From: Gemmatimonadota bacterium
GTDB taxonomy: Bacteria > Gemmatimonadota > Gemmatimonadetes > Longimicrobiales > Gaopeijiaceae
Direction: 5' to 3'
Assembly: GCA_028873845.1 (NCBI GenBank)
Contig: JAPPNO010000129.1
Location: 67,808 to 121,793, forward strand
DNA: 53,986 nt
The notes under the pieces are model-generated. The model was not told where the DNA came from. It worked only from the letters and a program-made list of their open reading frames with translations, and did no database searches. Both the position numbers and the translations under genes were made by a program. Shown in pieces: positions 13,155-53,933 of the stretch. Within the stretch, counting starts at the first letter, position 1, and the number at the start of each line of letters is the position of its first letter.

Positions 13155-14470
13155 CTCCCCGCCGGCTCCCGCAACGCGTCAGGATCCAGGGGCAATGCGG
13201 CCGTGAGCACCTCCGCACCCTCCGGCGTCACCAGCACGTCGTCCTCGAGCCGGATTCCGGTTCCCTCCAGGCGCGGCCTTCCCGGACTGCTCCCCGGCGG
13301 GAAATAGAGGCCCGGCTCCACCGTGAACACCATGCCGGGCTCCAGCTTGGCCGGGCCGCCACGGTCGTGGTACGGCCCGGCGTCGTGCGTGTCGAGCCCC
13401 AGCCAGTGCGAGGTGCGATGGGGGAAGAAGCGGCGGTGGGACCGCTCGTCCAGCACCTCGTCCACCGTGCCCTCCAGGATGCCCGCGGCCACGAGCCCCT
13501 CCGCCATCCTCCGCGCGGCGGCCCCGTGAACCCCCTCCAGCGTGCCGCCCGGGACGCTGGCCGCCACCGCCGCGCGGTGCGCGTCCAGCACCACCTCGTA
13601 GACCTCGCGCCGCACCCCCGCCAACCGCCCCGACGCGGGGACGGTCCGGGTGATGTCGGCCGCATAGAAGTCGAATTCGGCCCCCGCATCGACGAGGACG
13701 AGATCATCCGCGCAAATCCGGGCGCTGTTGGCCGAGTAGTGCAGCGTGCAGGCGTTCACGCCCGCGGCCACGATCGTCGCAAAGGCCGGGCCGTTCGCCC
13801 CCCGGCTGCGAAAGCCCGCCTCGAGCGCGGCCTCCACCTCCCACTCCCCCATCCCCTCCCGCACGCTCCCCAGCACCGCCCGGAACGCGGCCACCGAAAT
13901 GCGGGCGGCCTCGCGCATCCGCGCGATCTCGGCCGGGCACTTGCGGCGGCGCATCGAGTCGAGGACCTCCCCCGGATCCACAACCGCACACGGACCCACC
14001 CCGTGTCTGGCCCTCTCTCTCCGCCCGTTGCGCAGGGTGTCCCGCACCACCCGGTCGCACGCTTCGCACGCGCCGAGCCTGTAGTGGATCCCTTCACCGC
14101 CCGCCAGCAACCCGGGAGCCTTTTCGCTGAAGTCGCGCCGGCCGAGGACCTTGTCGGCACCGAAAACCGCCCGTACCTCCTCCGGGTCGCGGCGCGGCCC
14201 CGTCCACAGTTCCCTTTCGGGGTTCCTTTCCGGCACGAACAACACGAACCGGTCCTCGTCCGCAAAGCCCCGCAGGAGCGCGATGCACTCCGGCGCGTCC
14301 CACCCGGTGAGGTACAGCAGCTCCGAATCGGGGCGGTAGCGGTACTCGGAGTCGCCGTTCCTGAAGCGCACCGGCGCCGCCGGCAGGAGCATGGAGGTGT
14401 TCCCCAACCGAGCGAGCGCCCGGTCGCGCCGGTCACCGTACGGGATCGGCGGAAACGGGTGGCCCCTCAC
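13151..14470 (-). CDS. pepP: Xaa-Pro aminopeptidase (aminopeptidase P, M24)
   Basis: 439 residues, close to E. coli PepP in length. It removes N-terminal residues preceding proline. The N-terminal domain has the family sequence RYRPDSELLYLTGWDAPE. The catalytic pita-bread domain shows the metal ligands in order: Asp in LVDAGAEFDFYAADITRT (near 258 and 269), His in SHWLGLDTHDAG (near 355), Glu in VEPGLYF (near 386) and Glu in GIRLEDDV (near 405). The GTG at 14470 overlaps the stop of the S9 peptidase by 4 nt (GTGA). The frame stays open far upstream, but only because it reads antiphase through that peptidase. No signal peptide is seen, so it is probably cytoplasmic and finishes peptides generated outside. 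Confidence 0.93.
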   Translation of the reverse strand: MRGHPFPPIPYGDRRDRALARLGNTSMLLPAAPVRFRNGDSEYRYRPDSELLYLTGWDAPECIALLRGFADEDRFVLFVPERNPERELWTGPRRDPEEVRAVFGADKVLGRRDFSEKAPGLLAGGEGIHYRLGACEACDRVVRDTLRNGRRERARHGVGPCAVVDPGEVLDSMRRRKCPAEIARMREAARISVAAFRAVLGSVREGMGEWEVEAALEAGFRSRGANGPAFATIVAAGVNACTLHYSANSARICADDLVLVDAGAEFDFYAADITRTVPASGRLAGVRREVYEVVLDAHRAAVAASVPGGTLEGVHGAAARRMAEGLVAAGILEGTVDEVLDERSHRRFFPHRTSHWLGLDTHDAGPYHDRGGPAKLEPGMVFTVEPGLYFPPGSSPGRPRLEGTGIRLEDDVLVTPEGAEVLTAALPLDPDALREPAGR

Positions 14471-16728
14471 CCGCGGCCGGAACCCGTCGCGGCGCGGCTC
14501 CGGGGCGGGTTGTCGATCAGGAAGTGCACGAACCAGCTGCGGATGCGTTCCAGGCGATCCACGAGCAGCCAGGGCTCGCCGGTCCGCGACAGTCCGTGCG
14601 ACGAGCGGGGATAGCGCACCATCTCCACCGGGACGCCCCGCTTCTTCAGCGACATGAACCACTGTTCGGCGTCCCCGATCGGCGTCCGGTAGTCGTTCTC
14701 GCTGTGAATGATCAGCGTGGGTGCCGTGACGTTCTCGACGTACGATATGGGCGAGAGGCGGCGGTACAGGTCGCGCTGCTCCCACGGAGGACCATGGAAC
14801 TCGTACTCGGTCAGGCGCTGCGCGTCCGAGGTGCCCCACCAGCTCTCCCAGTTGGTGATCGAGCGCGAGGTCACCGCCGCGCGGAAGCGGTCGGTCGTCG
14901 CGGTGAGCCAGTTGGTCATGAAGCCGCCGTAGCTGCCTCCCGAGACGCCCAGGCGGTTCGCGTCTATCTCGGGGTACGCCGCCAGCGCCGCCTCGACGCC
15001 GCCCAGGTAGTCCTCCCGGTCCACGATACCCCACTCCCCGCGGGTCGCGTACTGGAAGTCGTGCCCGTATCCGGAGGAGCCCCGGGGATTGGTGTACAGG
15101 ACGAAGAACCCCGCGGCCGAGAGGACATGGAATGTGGGGAAGAAGGTGTTCCCGTACGCGGAGTGCGGTCCGCCGTGGATCTTCAGGATCATCGGATAGG
15201 AGCCGCCGGGACGGAAGCCCGCGGGCTTGACGACCCAGCCCTCCACTTCGGTTCCGTCCTCGGCGTTCCAGGTCAGCCGTTCCGCCGGCATCAGGTTCAC
15301 GCCGGACAGCCACCCGTCGTTGAAGCGGGTGACCTTCTGCTCGCTCGATCCGTCCGCCGGACCGACGTACAGCTCGGCGGGGGTGACGGCGTCGGTACCG
15401 GTGAAGGCCATCACATCCCCCGCGGCGGAAAAGGAGAAGGACGACAGTCTGCGGGCCCCGCTGGTGACCTGCCTTGCGAGACCGTCCAGTGCCGCGCCGC
15501 CGCCCAGTGCCGCGTGGAAGAGGTGGCTGTCGCCGCCGATCCCGGCTGAGAAGTACACGCCCGCGCCGTCGGCGGCCCAGGTGGGCGCCCCGGGTCGCAG
15601 ATGAAAGACCTCGGTGAGGTTGACCGGCAGGCCGCGGAAATGGCCATCGGACCCTATCTCGGCCACGAGCAGGTCGGTCTGGCTGCCGCGCGCGGGGGTG
15701 GACAGAAAGGCGACGTGGCGGCCATCCGGCGACACGGCGGGTGCGCTCTCGGTGCCCGGGTTCGTGGTCAGCCGCCGCACGGTCCCGCCCTGGGCGTCGA
15801 CCGCCCAGATGTCGCCCGTGTTCTCGCTGCCGAGTTCGTCGTCTTCGTCTTCGTCGCCGGTGAAGAAGATCACCTGTCCGTCCCGCGACCAGACCGGGAC
15901 GCCCGCGTTGAACGGCAGCCGGGTGAGCTGCCGCGGGGTGCCTCCGGCCGCGTCCACGACCATGAGCTGCCGCTTGGCCCGGGACAGATAGTGCGGCTGC
16001 AGGGCGAGGCGCCCGTCGCGCTTGTAGCGGGTGGAGGTCACGACCCGGCCATCGAAGCGGGCCGCGTCCAGCGTACGCGTCACCGCGTCGGGAGCGATCC
16101 ACCCCTTGCGGCTCTCGTCCCCGCCGTCGGTCCCGGCATCGTCCGCATCCCCGTCCGGCGTTCCCACGTAGGCGATCAGGGCACCATCGGGGGACCAGAC
16201 CGGGAGGCCCTCGACCCCGTCGATGTGGAATGCCTCGCCTCCCGCACCGTGCACGCGCAGGAACCAGACCGGATTCGGGTCGTCTCCCCGCGTGGACGAA
16301 AATGCGAGCAGCGATCCATCAGGAGACCAGCGGGGGGCGCTCGACTCCTCGTTGGAGCTGGTCACGGGGAAGGGGTCACCCGCGGGGCGGCCGTCCTCCA
16401 GGGGCTGCAGCCACACTTCCCGGTGGCGGCGGTTCTCGGCTTCGACCACCGTCGTGACGGTGAAGGCAACGAAGCTGCCGTCGGGGGCAACGGCCACCTC
16501 TCCAACGTCCACCAGGCGGTAGTACAGGTCCGGAGCATATCCGGGGCTCTGCGCAGCAATCCCGGACGCCGTGAACGGTAGGATCGCGGCCGCCGCGGCG
16601 GCCGTCAGAAGGAGCTGGCGGCAAGCGCCGGCGGTGGCGGTGCGCGGACGGGATCCCCGCACCACCCGAACGGCGATGCACCCGGTCCGGCCGCTTCGCT
16701 CCTCCGACCCAAACTGTAAGGCACACAT
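14467..16728 (-). CDS. Exported S9-family (prolyl oligopeptidase / DPP-type) peptidase
   Basis: 753 residues. A hydrophobic signal (LLLTAAAAAAILPFTASGIAAQ) precedes a TolB-like propeller with 'SPDG' repeats and an acidic loop (DEDEDDELGSEN). A C-terminal alpha/beta hydrolase follows, with catalytic Ser in GVSGGSYGGF (near 597), Asp in SENDYRTPIG (near 680) and His in SSHGLSRTG (near 709). These are the S9 triad in the usual order. The ATG at 16728 lies inside a repeated regulatory motif (16725-16753), so the true start could be a little further in. It is the first gene of an operon with aminopeptidase P and the MTHFR-like gene, which suggests staged degradation of imported peptides. Confidence 0.92.
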   Translation of the reverse strand: MCALQFGSEERSGRTGCIAVRVVRGSRPRTATAGACRQLLLTAAAAAAILPFTASGIAAQSPGYAPDLYYRLVDVGEVAVAPDGSFVAFTVTTVVEAENRRHREVWLQPLEDGRPAGDPFPVTSSNEESSAPRWSPDGSLLAFSSTRGDDPNPVWFLRVHGAGGEAFHIDGVEGLPVWSPDGALIAYVGTPDGDADDAGTDGGDESRKGWIAPDAVTRTLDAARFDGRVVTSTRYKRDGRLALQPHYLSRAKRQLMVVDAAGGTPRQLTRLPFNAGVPVWSRDGQVIFFTGDEDEDDELGSENTGDIWAVDAQGGTVRRLTTNPGTESAPAVSPDGRHVAFLSTPARGSQTDLLVAEIGSDGHFRGLPVNLTEVFHLRPGAPTWAADGAGVYFSAGIGGDSHLFHAALGGGAALDGLARQVTSGARRLSSFSFSAAGDVMAFTGTDAVTPAELYVGPADGSSEQKVTRFNDGWLSGVNLMPAERLTWNAEDGTEVEGWVVKPAGFRPGGSYPMILKIHGGPHSAYGNTFFPTFHVLSAAGFFVLYTNPRGSSGYGHDFQYATRGEWGIVDREDYLGGVEAALAAYPEIDANRLGVSGGSYGGFMTNWLTATTDRFRAAVTSRSITNWESWWGTSDAQRLTEYEFHGPPWEQRDLYRRLSPISYVENVTAPTLIIHSENDYRTPIGDAEQWFMSLKKRGVPVEMVRYPRSSHGLSRTGEPWLLVDRLERIRSWFVHFLIDNPPRSRAATGSGRG

Positions 16729-16753
16729 TACATTATGTCATCTTCAGTATACA
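16725..16753 (-). promoter_or_regulatory. Triple half-site motif at the S9-peptidase start
   Basis: Read on the minus strand: half-site TGTATACT, gap GA, half-site AGATGACA, gap TAA, half-site TGTAATGT. The 8-2-8-3-8 spacing and sequence match motifs near carB (42773-42801) and before the Oar-like receptor (47550-47578). The third half-site covers the proposed ATG. TATACT also resembles a -10 hexamer, so the site may combine promoter and operator. Confidence 0.45.
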
Positions 16754-17045: not shown

Positions 17046-17094
17046 TATGAACCGACTATCAGGGATGATCTCACCCCGCCATGTGGAGGACCCC

Positions 17095-18858
17095 GTGACA
17101 CGCCCCCCGGTTCATCTCATCCGCTCCATCCTTCCTCTGCTGCTGGCAGGGAGCATCCCCGTCCACGCGGACGCCCAATCCGTACGTGGCCGGCTCCTGG
17201 ACCCCGACGGAGAAACCGGCCTGGGCAGCGCCATGATCGTCCTCGAGGACCGCAACGGCAACGAGCTCCAGCGCACCCTGTCGCGCAGCAACGGTCTCTT
17301 TCAGCTCGACGCACCCGTGCCCGGCAGCTATCGGCTGAGAGCCGAGCGGATCGGCTACGCGACCACCTACTCCGACTACCTCGACCTGGCGGCCGGCGAG
17401 ACGATCACGCAGAACCTCGTGGCCGCGGTGGAAGTCACCACCCTACAGGGACTGGTCGCCGTTGGCGAACGCAAGTGCACGGTGCGGCCGGAAGAAGGGT
17501 TGGCCGTCACGCGCGTCTGGGACGAAGCGAGGAAGGCCCTGAGCGCGGCGGCCTGGACCCAGGAACGCGGCTACTACCAGTACGAGATGATGAACATCAC
17601 CCGGCGGCTGGAGCCCGAAAGCCGGAAGATCATCAACGAACAGCGGAGCTATAACCGCGGCTACATGCAGGCCCCCTACGTGTCGCGCCCGGCCGATTCC
17701 GTCGTCCATGGAGGATTTGCCCGCATCAACGCCAGGGAATCGGTGTATTGGGCACCCGATGCCGAGGTCCTGCTGTCGGACGCCTTTCTGGACACCCACT
17801 GCTTCAACCTGAAGACCGACGCCGGGGAGGCCCCCGGGCTGATCGGGCTCACCTTCGAACCGGTTTCGGGCCGGCGCCTTCCCGATATCGGCGGCACGTT
17901 GTGGCTGGACCTGGCGACCTCCCGGCTGGAGCGATTGGACTACACCTACCGGAACCTCGATCTGCCGCGAACGATCCTGACCAGCGGGATCGGGGGCACG
18001 CTGGAGTTCGAGGCGCTGCCCAACGGTACCTGGATCGTGAACAAGTGGAGGATCCACATGCCCAAGGCGGGCATGGGAACCAATGTCCTCTCGGGGGGAG
18101 GCACGGCGATTCTCGAGGAGATCATCGTCCAGGGAGGCGATGTCATCAGGGTACACGGCAACGAGGGCACGGTTCTCGAGTCCGACCTCGGAGGCGGAAT
18201 CGCCGGCGTGGTCCGCGACACCATGAGGGCCGGACTGCCCAATGCCCGCGTGTACGTGGTGGGAACCGGGATCGAGACGTTCACCGACGCCGAGGGGAAG
18301 TTTCAGCTGGCGGGGCTGGACGCGGGCGTCTACTCGGTCACCTTCAGTCATCCCTATCTGGAGCCGTACGCCTACACCCCCGAGCCCTTCGAGGTGGAGG
18401 TGCTCGCCGACACGGATACGCCGGCCCAGGTCAGCTTCACCGCGCCCAGGGCGGCCAGGATCATCCGTGGACTGTGCAGTGACGTGGAGCGCCCCCCGGC
18501 ATTGGTGTCAGGGGGGCAGGAAGTCTCGACCAGCGGCATCCTCGTGGGCCGTGTGACCGATTCCGGTGGCAATCCGGTGCCGAACGCGATGGTCCGCATT
18601 CTGTCGAATCAGTTCGATGTGGGAGGACCCGTGCTGAGAATGGACCGCGGCGGGACCGTCGTGTCGACCAACGAATCGGGGTACTACCGTGCGTGCTGGA
18701 TGCCGGTCGACTCGCCGCTCAACGTGGCGGTGCTGGATCCGGATGAGGGGGATCCGTCGGATATCGATGCGGCCAAGCTCCTTACCGGGGAGCAGGAGGT
18801 CATCCTGAGTCCCGTGGCTCCGCTGGGAAGGATTGATCTGCGGATCAATCCGAGGTGA
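17095..18858 (+). CDS. Exported protein with N- and C-terminal carboxypeptidase-regulatory-like domains
   Basis: 587 residues from a GTG with GGAGG 5 nt upstream; the in-frame ATG at 17047 would precede the likely transcription start. A signal peptide (IRSILPLLLAGSIPVHADAQS) leads to a regulatory-like beta-sandwich (VRGRLLDPDGETGLGSAMI, ending QNLVAAVEVTTLQGL). A central beta-rich region follows (PDIGGTLWLDLATSRLERLDYTYRN; GTLEFEALPNGTWIVNKW), then further regulatory-like domains (GIAGVVRDTMRAGLPNARV; GRVTDSGGNPVPNAMV). No barrel or plug is visible. The TonB receptor follows after 30 nt, so the protein may be its periplasmic or surface partner. Function is otherwise unknown. Confidence 0.85.
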   Translation: MTRPPVHLIRSILPLLLAGSIPVHADAQSVRGRLLDPDGETGLGSAMIVLEDRNGNELQRTLSRSNGLFQLDAPVPGSYRLRAERIGYATTYSDYLDLAAGETITQNLVAAVEVTTLQGLVAVGERKCTVRPEEGLAVTRVWDEARKALSAAAWTQERGYYQYEMMNITRRLEPESRKIINEQRSYNRGYMQAPYVSRPADSVVHGGFARINARESVYWAPDAEVLLSDAFLDTHCFNLKTDAGEAPGLIGLTFEPVSGRRLPDIGGTLWLDLATSRLERLDYTYRNLDLPRTILTSGIGGTLEFEALPNGTWIVNKWRIHMPKAGMGTNVLSGGGTAILEEIIVQGGDVIRVHGNEGTVLESDLGGGIAGVVRDTMRAGLPNARVYVVGTGIETFTDAEGKFQLAGLDAGVYSVTFSHPYLEPYAYTPEPFEVEVLADTDTPAQVSFTAPRAARIIRGLCSDVERPPALVSGGQEVSTSGILVGRVTDSGGNPVPNAMVRILSNQFDVGGPVLRMDRGGTVVSTNESGYYRACWMPVDSPLNVAVLDPDEGDPSDIDAAKLLTGEQEVILSPVAPLGRIDLRINPR

Positions 18859-42500: not shown

Positions 42501-42761
42501 CAGCAGCGCGTCCGGCTTCTCGCGCTCGATCACCCGTTCCACCCACTCCGGCGTCAGCGGCTCGATGTAGGTCCGGTCGGCCAGGTCCGGATCCGTCATG
42601 ATCGTGGCCGGATTGGAGTTGACCAGGACGACCCGGAAGCCCTCCTCCTTGAGCGCCCTCACGGCCTGCGTGCCGGAATAGTCGAACTCGCAGGCCTGCC
42701 CGATCACGATGGGACCCGACCCCAGGATCAGGATCGAGTCGATGTCGGTGCGTTTAGGCAA
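39510..42761 (-). CDS. carB: Carbamoyl-phosphate synthase large subunit
   Basis: 1083 residues, full length. It makes carbamoyl phosphate for arginine and pyrimidine synthesis from ammonia supplied by CarA. Two homologous ATP-grasp halves are visible ([19 protein letters not shown] and [32 protein letters not shown] and [17 protein letters not shown]). A C-terminal allosteric MGS-like domain follows ([18 protein letters not shown]). The start is a TTG with only a weak ribosome site. carA is not in the window. A palindromic triple half-site (42773-42801) lies 11 nt before the start, around the probable promoter. Confidence 0.97.
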
Positions 42762-42772
42762 GGTGGACCCAC

Positions 42773-42801
42773 TGTAAACTACAGTTTACATATTGTAAAG
42801 T
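42773..42801. promoter_or_regulatory. Palindromic triple half-site operator/promoter of carB
   Basis: On the plus strand: TGTAAACT (42773-42780), AC, AGTTTACA (42783-42790), TAT, TGTAAAGT (42794-42801). Halves 1 and 2 form a perfect 8-2-8 palindrome. Halves 2 and 3 form a second dyad (TTTACA/TGTAAA, 3-bp gap). On the minus strand, TACAAT (42797-42792) could be the carB -10 hexamer, so a protein bound here would cover the transcription start. Similar sites lie at 16725-16753 and 47550-47578. Confidence 0.6.
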
Positions 42802-42888
42802 CGTTTTGACATCGCGGCCAACTGAGCGGGGCGGCGCAGCGTGGACGCAGCGCCGGTCGAATGCCTGGACGGTGTTGTGCACGAGCTG

Positions 42889-43239: not shown

Positions 43240-43605
43240 GTGACGACACGCCCCCTGCCCGATTCCGAACTCGCGGTAATGGAACAGCTCTGGCGGAGCG
43301 GCCGGTTGACCGCCCGCCAGATTATCGAGCGGCTCTATCCCGATGCGGCCAGACCCCAGCATGGCACCGTACAAAGACTCCTGCAGCGTCTCGAAGCCAA
43401 GGGGTTCGTGGAACGTGACCGCAGTCTGGGTATCAACGTCTTTTCGCCGGCCATCGGTCGCGAGGCCTACACCAGCGGCCAGCTGGAGTCGCTGGCGAAG
43501 CGGTTGGGCGGGGGATCCCTGGTGCCCATGGTCAGCCGGCTGGTCGAAGACAACAAGCTGTCATCCGCCGAGATCGCAAAGCTCCGGCGGGTATTGGAGG
43601 AATAG
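43240..43605 (+). CDS. BlaI/MecI-family transcriptional repressor
   Basis: 121 residues from a GTG with GAGG 6 nt upstream. The winged-helix core is clear: LPDSELAVMEQLWRSGRLTARQIIERLYP, then HGTVQRLLQRLEAKGFVERDRS with the recognition helix. A C-terminal dimerisation helix follows (SLVPMVSRLVEDNKLSSAEIAKLRRVLEE). In known systems such repressors are inactivated when the partner M56 membrane protease senses a ligand. The M56 gene follows immediately (stop TAG, then ATG one base later). Dyads in its own promoter suggest autoregulation. Targets beyond its operon are unknown. Confidence 0.93.
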   Translation: MTTRPLPDSELAVMEQLWRSGRLTARQIIERLYPDAARPQHGTVQRLLQRLEAKGFVERDRSLGINVFSPAIGREAYTSGQLESLAKRLGGGSLVPMVSRLVEDNKLSSAEIAKLRRVLEE

Positions 43606-43606
43606 G

Positions 43607-45100
43607 ATGACCGACCTTCTGCTTCAGATCGGGGCCACCAAGCTGGTGGTATCGCTGGTGCTGGCCGGCTTGGCGTGGGTGACGCGCCGGCGTGGTGCAC
43701 ACCCCTCCGTCTCCCATCTTCTCTGGTTGCTGGTGCTTGTCATCCTCCTCCTTCCAGCGGTGGTTTCGGTCCCGATACCTCCGGGTACAACCGGTACGGC
43801 ATCGGTGGCCACCGGCGACCTGCAGTCCGCAGGGCATGCGAACGCGCGGCCATTTGCGCCAGCGCTCGGCACTGAAGACACCGGACCCGGCCCGTTCCCT
43901 TCCCGTTTCGGCGGCAATGCAAGGGCCGGAGTCGCAACCGTTTGGCTCGCCGTCACCGTGCTGCTGCTCGGGTGGACCCTGGTCCGTACACTCCGGTTCC
44001 GGCGGCTGCTCGCCCGGACCTCGCAGGCGGCTCCGCCGGCACTGGGGCGCGAAGTTGCCAGGATCGGACGCGGCCTCGGGCTGGTCCACAGGCCGGAAGT
44101 GCTCACTACGACCGCCCGTGTCTCACCGATGGTCTGCTGGACCGGGGGCAGGGTCCGCCTCGTGGTTCCCTCCTTCCTCCTGGTCGAACTCGACCACTAC
44201 GAACTCCGGGCCGTGCTGGCGCACGAGCTGGCGCACGTTCGGAGGCGCGACCACCTGGTGCGCTGGATCGAATGGCTGGCGTGTTCGGTCTTCTGGTGGA
44301 ATCCGGTGGCCTGGTGGTCCCGCCGCGAACTCAGGGCCGCCGAAGAAGCGTCGTGCGACGCGCTGGGGGTGGCGGCGATCGGTTCGACGCCGCGGGCCTA
44401 TGCGAAATCGCTTCTCCAAGTGCTGGAGGTGATGTCCAAACCGCCGACGCCCCCGACGCCCACCCTGGCGAGCGGAGTCGCGAGCGGGCGGGGTTCCAGG
44501 TCGCTCGAGAGGAGGCTCAGGATGCTCGTTACGGGAAGATCGAGCCGGCGGGCCCCCCGCTGGATCCGTGCGATGGTTATTGGGGGGGCCGCGTTTCTGC
44601 TCCCGCTCGGACTCGTGTATTGCGGCCCCGGCATCCGGACGACCCCGACGGAGCCGGAAGAGCCGCCCGTGCCGCCGCCGGGAGCCGCGCTGGTCGTCGT
44701 CAACGGACCTGCCGGCTCCGATTCGAGAGCAGGGGAGCCGAGGGAGCTCCTGCGCGGCGACCCGGGGTATGCCTACTGGACGTTCGGCGCAGACGGGACG
44801 GATGGCCCCCGGCCGCTTCGCGAGGCGCCGGTGCAGCCGGTGGAATGCCGGATGGATCTGGAAGAACCGGACGAACAGGCCCATGATGCAGCCATGGCCG
44901 CGTGCGCGAAGGCGCTGGCCAGGGACCTCCCGCGGACGGAAGGCTCCGAAGACCGGAATGTGTGCGTACAGCGGGAGTACAGGACCGGCCTCCGCTGGCG
45001 CGGGATCTGCGAAGGCTGGGAGCCGGGGGAACGATATCGCGTGCGCGGCAACGCCACCGGCAGCTTCCTGCTGGAGCGCATCGCTGCAGGGAGGGAGTGA
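43607..45100 (+). CDS. M56-family (BlaR1/MecR1-like) membrane sensor protease
   Basis: 497 residues, with GGAGG 6 nt before the ATG. Membrane segments lie near 7-24, 37-54 and 108-125. The cytoplasmic zinc protease domain has LAHELAHVRRRDH (HELAH near 206-210) and the downstream Glu in AAEEASCDALG. A last membrane segment (IRAMVIGGAAFLLPLGLVYC) is near 315-335. The extracytoplasmic C-terminus (about 160 residues) begins with a Pro-rich spacer and contains four cysteines (VECRMDLE, MAACAKAL, NVCVQREY, RGICEGW). It is not a penicillin-binding sensor domain, so the signal is unlikely to be a beta-lactam bound in the BlaR1 way. An internal ATG at 44522 has an AGGAGG site. Confidence 0.9.
   Translation: MTDLLLQIGATKLVVSLVLAGLAWVTRRRGAHPSVSHLLWLLVLVILLLPAVVSVPIPPGTTGTASVATGDLQSAGHANARPFAPALGTEDTGPGPFPSRFGGNARAGVATVWLAVTVLLLGWTLVRTLRFRRLLARTSQAAPPALGREVARIGRGLGLVHRPEVLTTTARVSPMVCWTGGRVRLVVPSFLLVELDHYELRAVLAHELAHVRRRDHLVRWIEWLACSVFWWNPVAWWSRRELRAAEEASCDALGVAAIGSTPRAYAKSLLQVLEVMSKPPTPPTPTLASGVASGRGSRSLERRLRMLVTGRSSRRAPRWIRAMVIGGAAFLLPLGLVYCGPGIRTTPTEPEEPPVPPPGAALVVVNGPAGSDSRAGEPRELLRGDPGYAYWTFGADGTDGPRPLREAPVQPVECRMDLEEPDEQAHDAAMAACAKALARDLPRTEGSEDRNVCVQREYRTGLRWRGICEGWEPGERYRVRGNATGSFLLERIAAGRE
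44510..44524 (+). promoter_or_regulatory. Internal ribosome-binding site and in-frame ATG within the M56 gene
   Basis: AGGAGG (44510-44515) is followed after 6 nt by an in-frame ATG (44522). Translation from it would give a 192-residue product made of the last membrane segment, a lipobox-like LVYC and the extracytoplasmic domain. The same place in the decayed duplicate (46541-46552) became the ribosome site of a free-standing gene. The bases also simply encode Glu-Arg-Arg-Leu, so the site may be fortuitous. Confidence 0.35.
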
Positions 45101-47549: not shown

Positions 47550-47578
47550 AGTCAACCACGGTTGACATCATGTAAGCC
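47550..47578. promoter_or_regulatory. Palindromic triple half-site before the Oar-like TonB receptor
   Basis: AGTCAACC (47550-47557), AC, GGTTGACA (47560-47567), TCA, TGTAAGCC (47571-47578). The first two halves form a palindrome with a 2-bp gap. The whole follows the same 8-2-8-3-8 plan as 42773-42801. It lies 88 bp before the receptor ATG. A strong GC hairpin (about 47580-47605) follows. Confidence 0.5.
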
Positions 47579-53915: not shown

Positions 53916-53933
53916 TGTCATGCATGATTTACA
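53916..53933 (-). promoter_or_regulatory. Partial copy of the half-site motif before the HD gene
   Basis: Read on the minus strand: TGTAAATC, gap AT, GCATGACA. This matches the first two half-sites and 2-bp gap of the motif at 16725-16753 and 42773-42801. The expected third half-site is not seen. It lies 25 nt before the proposed ATG and overlaps an alternative ATG at 53921. Confidence 0.3.

Follow-up and report, generated by a model that had tools for sequence, protein, structure and literature searches.

A dispersed double operator in one Gemmatimonadota genus is very probably that of an XRE-PBP_like regulator heading a mod operon

Transport of molybdate and tungstate is reportedly controlled by TaoR, in which an oxyanion sensor resembling periplasmic-binding proteins (PBPs) is fused to a DNA-binding domain. 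This DNA-binding domain is excisionase-like, and we know of no genome-wide dispersal of TaoR sites. Repressors of the CI type typically bind as paired dimers to operators spaced by about two turns of the helix. In Geobacter sulfurreducens, the molybdate-linked regulator ModE is encoded beside modABC and has predicted sites beyond the mod genes (consensus ATCGCTATATA-N6-TATATAACGAT), which have decayed in a relative that lost the DNA-binding domain of the regulator, according to the available part of the source (PMC2700814).

The motif analysed here was found in a 53,986-nucleotide stretch of DNA (the window) from a 4.05 Mb, 137-contig draft genome of Gemmatimonadota (G000). Its DNA-binding-site-like unit spans 39 bp and consists of two 18-bp palindromes (TGTMAWNYNNRNWTKACA), each of the form TGT-N12-ACA, with a 3-bp separator and 21 bp between centres. 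One copy lies 5' of carB (42773-42811, minus strand; matrix score 56.7, none in controls), with its first palindrome at 42773-42790 (TGTAAACTACAGTTTACA) and its second at 42794-42811 (TGTAAAGTCGTTTTGACA). The other (16715-16753, plus strand; matrix score 55.5) pairs palindromes at 16715-16732 (TGTAAGGCACACATTACA) and 16736-16753 (TGTCATCTTCAGTATACA), between the S9 peptidase gene (14467-16665, minus strand) and the next gene (17065-18858, plus strand). Using a position matrix built from 48 sites, these two full copies scored 55-57 and every other independent position of the window scored below 5, position 42752 passing 5 solely as an overlapping frame; reversed or Markov-resampled window sequence gave no score above 4.

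An earlier note on this DNA had described three half-sites in an 8-2-8-3-8 plan before carB, at the S9 peptidase gene and before a receptor gene, with a partial copy before an HD gene. Checked against the sequence, the half-sites are present letter for letter and in place, and a recount again gave a match between the receptor and carB copies at 19 of 29 positions; for the peptidase copy, put at 19 of 24 half-site positions, we count 20 of 24. The three half-sites are therefore real, but a fourth had been overlooked, and this fourth half-site at carB, together with the pairing of palindromes at the S9 locus, identifies the true unit as 18-3-18 bp. The receptor and HD copies did not survive as further instances, each being a single, unconserved palindrome. 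Before the receptor gene lies a lone weak palindrome (47550-47567, AGTCAACCACGGTTGACA; 39-bp score 0.5), with no counterpart found in G009 or in the syntenic G021; it is not accepted as a full site. The HD copy (53916-53933, TGTCATGCATGATTTACA), an exact 18-bp match before the HD gene, has no second palindrome (39-bp matrix score -4.3), was not found in syntenic G021, G001 or G009, and is no more than a half site or a decayed one. Close to carB on its upstream side, a BlaI/MecI-type repressor gene (BlaI, 43240-43605) lies on the opposite strand, and an M56 (BlaR1-type) peptidase gene comes after it, the pair spanning 43240-45100. The known BlaI box has inverted half-sites 2 bp apart, and BlaI was set aside as a candidate binder.

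The claim that the motif is repeated far above chance was borne out: TGTAAA-N6-TTTACA with up to 2 mismatches occurs 189 times in the genome, as compared to 11 times for the reversed pattern. When the box is counted as one palindrome with at most 1 mismatch, 22 of the 23 congeners, with G000 among them, each have 24-355 copies, against 0-2 for the reversed-pattern control. The sole congener with zero boxes at this threshold is G009, a draft that is about 94% complete, whilst 17 genomes of other genera hold 0-1 boxes each, again at up to 1 mismatch. Among the genomes counted, multiplication of the box is restricted to this one Gemmatimonadota genus of marine bacteria. No Watson-Crick covariation was observed across the dyads, which argues for double-stranded protein-binding sites rather than hairpins; an RNA or single-stranded DNA hairpin was rejected on this ground and by the lack of an Rfam match for the motif. 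Several tests thus support the motif behaving like a protein-binding site.

Candidate binders were tried in succession: TyrR, ParB, ArgR and then an XRE-PBP protein. In G001, a site stands shortly before an XRE gene whose product has a PF12727 sensor domain. We consider it very probable that the motif is the predicted double operator of this XRE (HTH_3)-PBP_like (PF12727) regulator, which heads an xre-modABC operon. Its gene in G000 lies outside the window (G000:C24:20488-21585) and is the first of xre-modA-modB-modC; this operon was seen in the loci read, with TIGR01256 and TIGR02141 above cut-offs. The protein is present in 22/22 site-bearing congeners (identity to the G001 query of 52% in G011 and 62-89% in the others) and was not found in the site-less G009, so that regulator and site co-occur across the genus, in 22 positive congeners and one negative. 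In all 22, a 39-bp site is located 33-150 bp upstream of the xre start, with matrix scores of 33-58. A structure prediction for the protein (pLDDT 88) shows an HTH joined to a type-2 periplasmic-binding-protein fold, and the PBP domain model resembles the ModA, TupA and LysR effector domains; from this fold and the mod operon we infer a molybdate- or tungstate-like ligand. The part of the earlier proposal that posited a regulator site therefore stands, in that a specific regulator can be named, but its promoter-centred nutrient regulon is unsupported, as detailed below.

Like TaoR, this regulator joins a PBP-like sensor to a DNA-binding domain, but its DNA-binding domain is XRE/HTH_3 rather than excisionase-like. 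The nearest PDB sequence to the HTH domain, and its nearest solved relative, is CylR2 (1utx, 2xiu); CylR2 and CI-like XRE repressors lack the PBP sensor domain and are local regulators. A literature search found no description of XRE-PF12727 mod regulators. ModE belongs to an unrelated protein family with a different operator, and a ModE regulon was rejected, the protein beside modABC being HTH_3 plus PF12727 and the motif unlike the TATATA-N6-TATATA-like ModE consensus; the decay of ModE sites in the relative nevertheless parallels the site-less G009, and the available part of that source describes neither a mobile repeat nor intragenic conservation of ModE sites (PMC2700814).

As some of the analyses were selected with the data already in view, the main independent check is a cross-phylum operator test. 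Homologues encoded on Deinococcus and Thermomicrobium plasmids share 31-37% identity and stand at the head of mod operons; a short way upstream of xre they have the same 21-bp-spaced double palindrome, with mismatches at 2-5 of 16 positions (p 0-0.007 by shuffling). For the first six homologues tested, the operator is unequalled by any other 100-bp window of the locus, the weakest having 5 of 16 mismatches; three checked later gave one strong operator and two weak ones. In several of these operators, half-sites 2 and 4 fall on a -35 hexamer (TTGACA) and on one resembling a -10 element, which are 17 bp apart as read by eye, and the Gemmatimonadota consensus has a TTKACA-N17-TACATT geometry in both directions. 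This overlap makes promoter occlusion the natural reading of repression. Against the XRE-PBP protein as the binder stand distant homologues that lack the operator, namely those of outgroups G024 and G027, which lie beside mod-type transporter genes, and two in Nostoc, one near nif genes. In addition, most genes beside the sites have no relation to molybdenum, the sites could be bound by a different XRE protein, and G011, the genome with most sites, encodes a regulator shortened to 261 aa in which the PBP domain is partly missing (L277:3484-4269).

Two sites are kept inside genes across the site-bearing congeners. In smc, the 39-bp site lies at the same codons in 22/22 site-bearing congeners, with no length difference as compared to the site-less G009, although its third half-site is degenerate in about half of the 22. 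GC3 of smc is 0.34 within the site as against 0.80 beyond it, and the equivalent codons of G009 have a GC3 of 0.92: the site in smc is under DNA-level constraint. An AMP-ligase gene has a site at the same place in 20/20 site-bearing genomes in which the gene was found, and has none in G009. At both loci the half-sites are largely kept, whilst spacers and protein sequence vary.

Other copies, including both in the window, are associated with a larger MITE-like repeat that starts near AGCAGTCCGTGGA and ends with an inverted copy, TCCACGGACTGCT, forming terminal inverted repeats. The left part of this repeat is present in 23/23 genomes, G009 included, and the right part in 21. Alignment to repeat copies revealed a decayed left part at the carB operator (42812-42888, minus strand), beginning beside the stop codon of the upstream small ORF, and another beside the S9 operator (16650-16714, plus strand), whose local alignment score of 28 compares with at most 15 in shuffled flanks. 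The carB operator is present in just 4 of 21 congeners examined; it lies within inserted repeat in the three aligned cases (G000, G021 and G007), and G011 also has it. Most congeners have, after the upstream stop codon, either no insert or an insert without a box, so that the locus exists in empty, box-less and box-bearing states and the repeat shows both the inverted termini and the insertion polymorphism of a MITE. The S9 operator is missing in syntenic G021 and G001. Repeat-like flanks were detected at about a quarter of sampled G000 sites (13/50, two of them marginal, with both window copies among the 13), at 3/30 in G001 and at 16/23 in G011. Given these findings, the window copies are best read as having arrived by insertion and not as part of an ancestral regulon. 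Viral spread of the larger repeat was rejected, its left part having no exact match in viral contigs.

Such features recall MITEs and palindromic repeats (Correia/CREE, ERIC, REP), which are likewise short and dispersed, have terminal inverted repeats and carry a protein-binding site; what sets the present case apart is that the 39-bp core also occurs without the repeat and is the predicted operator of an identifiable regulator. Dispersal could be purely selfish, the 39 bp being the core of a MITE-like repeat and the conserved copies functionless relics, as the frequency of repeat flanks in G000 and G011 and the insertion at carB would suggest. We regard this as unlikely, because the smc site shows no length change relative to G009, because the smc and AMP-ligase half-sites are kept across the tested site-bearing congeners as spacers and protein diverge, and because the same site is the predicted operator of the xre-mod operon.

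The placement of sites was analysed for those among the matches listed and in sequence stretches, a subset of all genomic sites. Four site-bearing genomes supplied 394 kb of contiguous sequence, in which the strong sites are all intergenic, one overlapping a gene by a few bases. Pooled loci, placed using heuristic gene calls, comprise 50 tandem, 22 divergent and 18 convergent arrangements, as compared to 49, 23 and 17 expected from intergenic length alone (p 0.95), which indicates that promoters are not preferred. A further 19 pooled sites fall within called genes, of which some are probably miscalled gene starts. Genes nearest the sites share no common theme, and coxM was rejected as a conserved molybdoenzyme target since the identical 18-mer in G018 sits at an unrelated locus.

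These data bear on the nutrient regulon proposed in the earlier note, in which a conventional regulator would act at the carB, peptidase, receptor and 5-oxoproline promoters. The sites themselves are real, some precede orthologous genes in several species, and an amidohydrolase gene has an upstream site in 4 genomes. However, the sites track intergenic length rather than concentrating before genes, with some between convergent genes and some inside coding sequence. The proposed check on conservation also went against the regulon: the carB, S9, receptor and HD sites are unconserved. The neighbours of the sites in general share no theme. Both full window copies, at carB and S9, belong to a MITE-like repeat and lack conservation as targets, so they do not denote a nutrient regulon; site position and conservation largely refute this reading, which we now hold to be very improbable.

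We give similarly little credence to the idea that these are chromosome-architecture sites akin to those of parS, matS or Noc, with a separate binding protein. Dispersal within and between genes without promoter bias, and the conservation of one site in smc, would fit such a role, but each congener searched has one canonical ParB, and even the site-less G009 has it, on which ground ParB/Noc was rejected as the binder. A second ParB match occurs in G015 alone and is weak and below cut-off, the sites of the complete genome G001 are unbiased in position relative to the parB locus (KS p 0.36), and a better candidate binder exists in the XRE-PBP protein. Paired ARG boxes have an 18-3-18 bp architecture, carAB being a classical ArgR target, and the TyrR consensus is TGTAAA-N6-TTTACA, so that paired spacing and half-site respectively equal those found here, yet there is next to no chance that the boxes belong to either: ARG half-sites are spaced differently, ArgR was not detected in G011 (most sites; a draft, 96% complete) and is present in outgroups without sites, and no conserved TyrR-type HTH_50 protein was found (none in G003, other HTH_50 matches in the genus being mostly weak).

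For the predicted XRE-PBP operator, we propose that two dimers would bind on the same face of the DNA, one per 18-bp palindrome and 21 bp (two turns) apart, and would repress the xre-mod promoter, with a molybdate- or tungstate-like oxyanion as the presumed signal. In the genus, the operator has multiplied to tens or hundreds of dispersed copies, probably by two routes: carriage on the MITE-like repeat (both window copies and most sampled G011 sites) and, as at smc and the AMP-ligase gene of every site-bearing congener tested, origin or retention at the locus itself. The promoter geometry in both directions means that dispersed copies could be regulated promoters, roadblocks or decoys. We tentatively suggest, as a possibility somewhat short of even, that a local repressor of molybdate uptake became a chromosome-wide DNA-binding protein, whose dispersed operators, some selected in genes and some spread by the repeat, have genome-wide roles. 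If so, the operators could act as roadblocks to elongation, as portable, bidirectional promoters responsive to oxyanions or as a titration reservoir. Here sequence analysis puts a name to a dispersed motif, its likely binding protein, the probable ancestral operon and a means of spread. This provides a system for testing how the operator of a local repressor invades a genome and whether new genes come under a metal-oxyanion signal through mobile repeats, and for asking why essential genes such as smc keep binding sites. The XRE-PBP operator can also help to annotate mod operons in Deinococcus and Thermomicrobium.

Viral contigs display the same double operator directly upstream of XRE repressor genes; in L240, L241, L243-L245 and L248, the operator and XRE repressor gene are followed by an ImmA/IrrE-like metallopeptidase gene. 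The xre-mod operon of G000 is directly preceded by two adjacent GPP34-like genes (L274:6871-8336; Pfam match for the second gene only), and similar genes also precede it in G013, G018 and G021. G002 and G018 have in common an in-gene site (L308, L292) towards the 3' end of an apparent valyl-tRNA synthetase gene. On contig C28 of G011 (L214:191-476), the larger repeat is present in tandem with 247-bp spacing, and two successive units carry an identical 39-bp operator.
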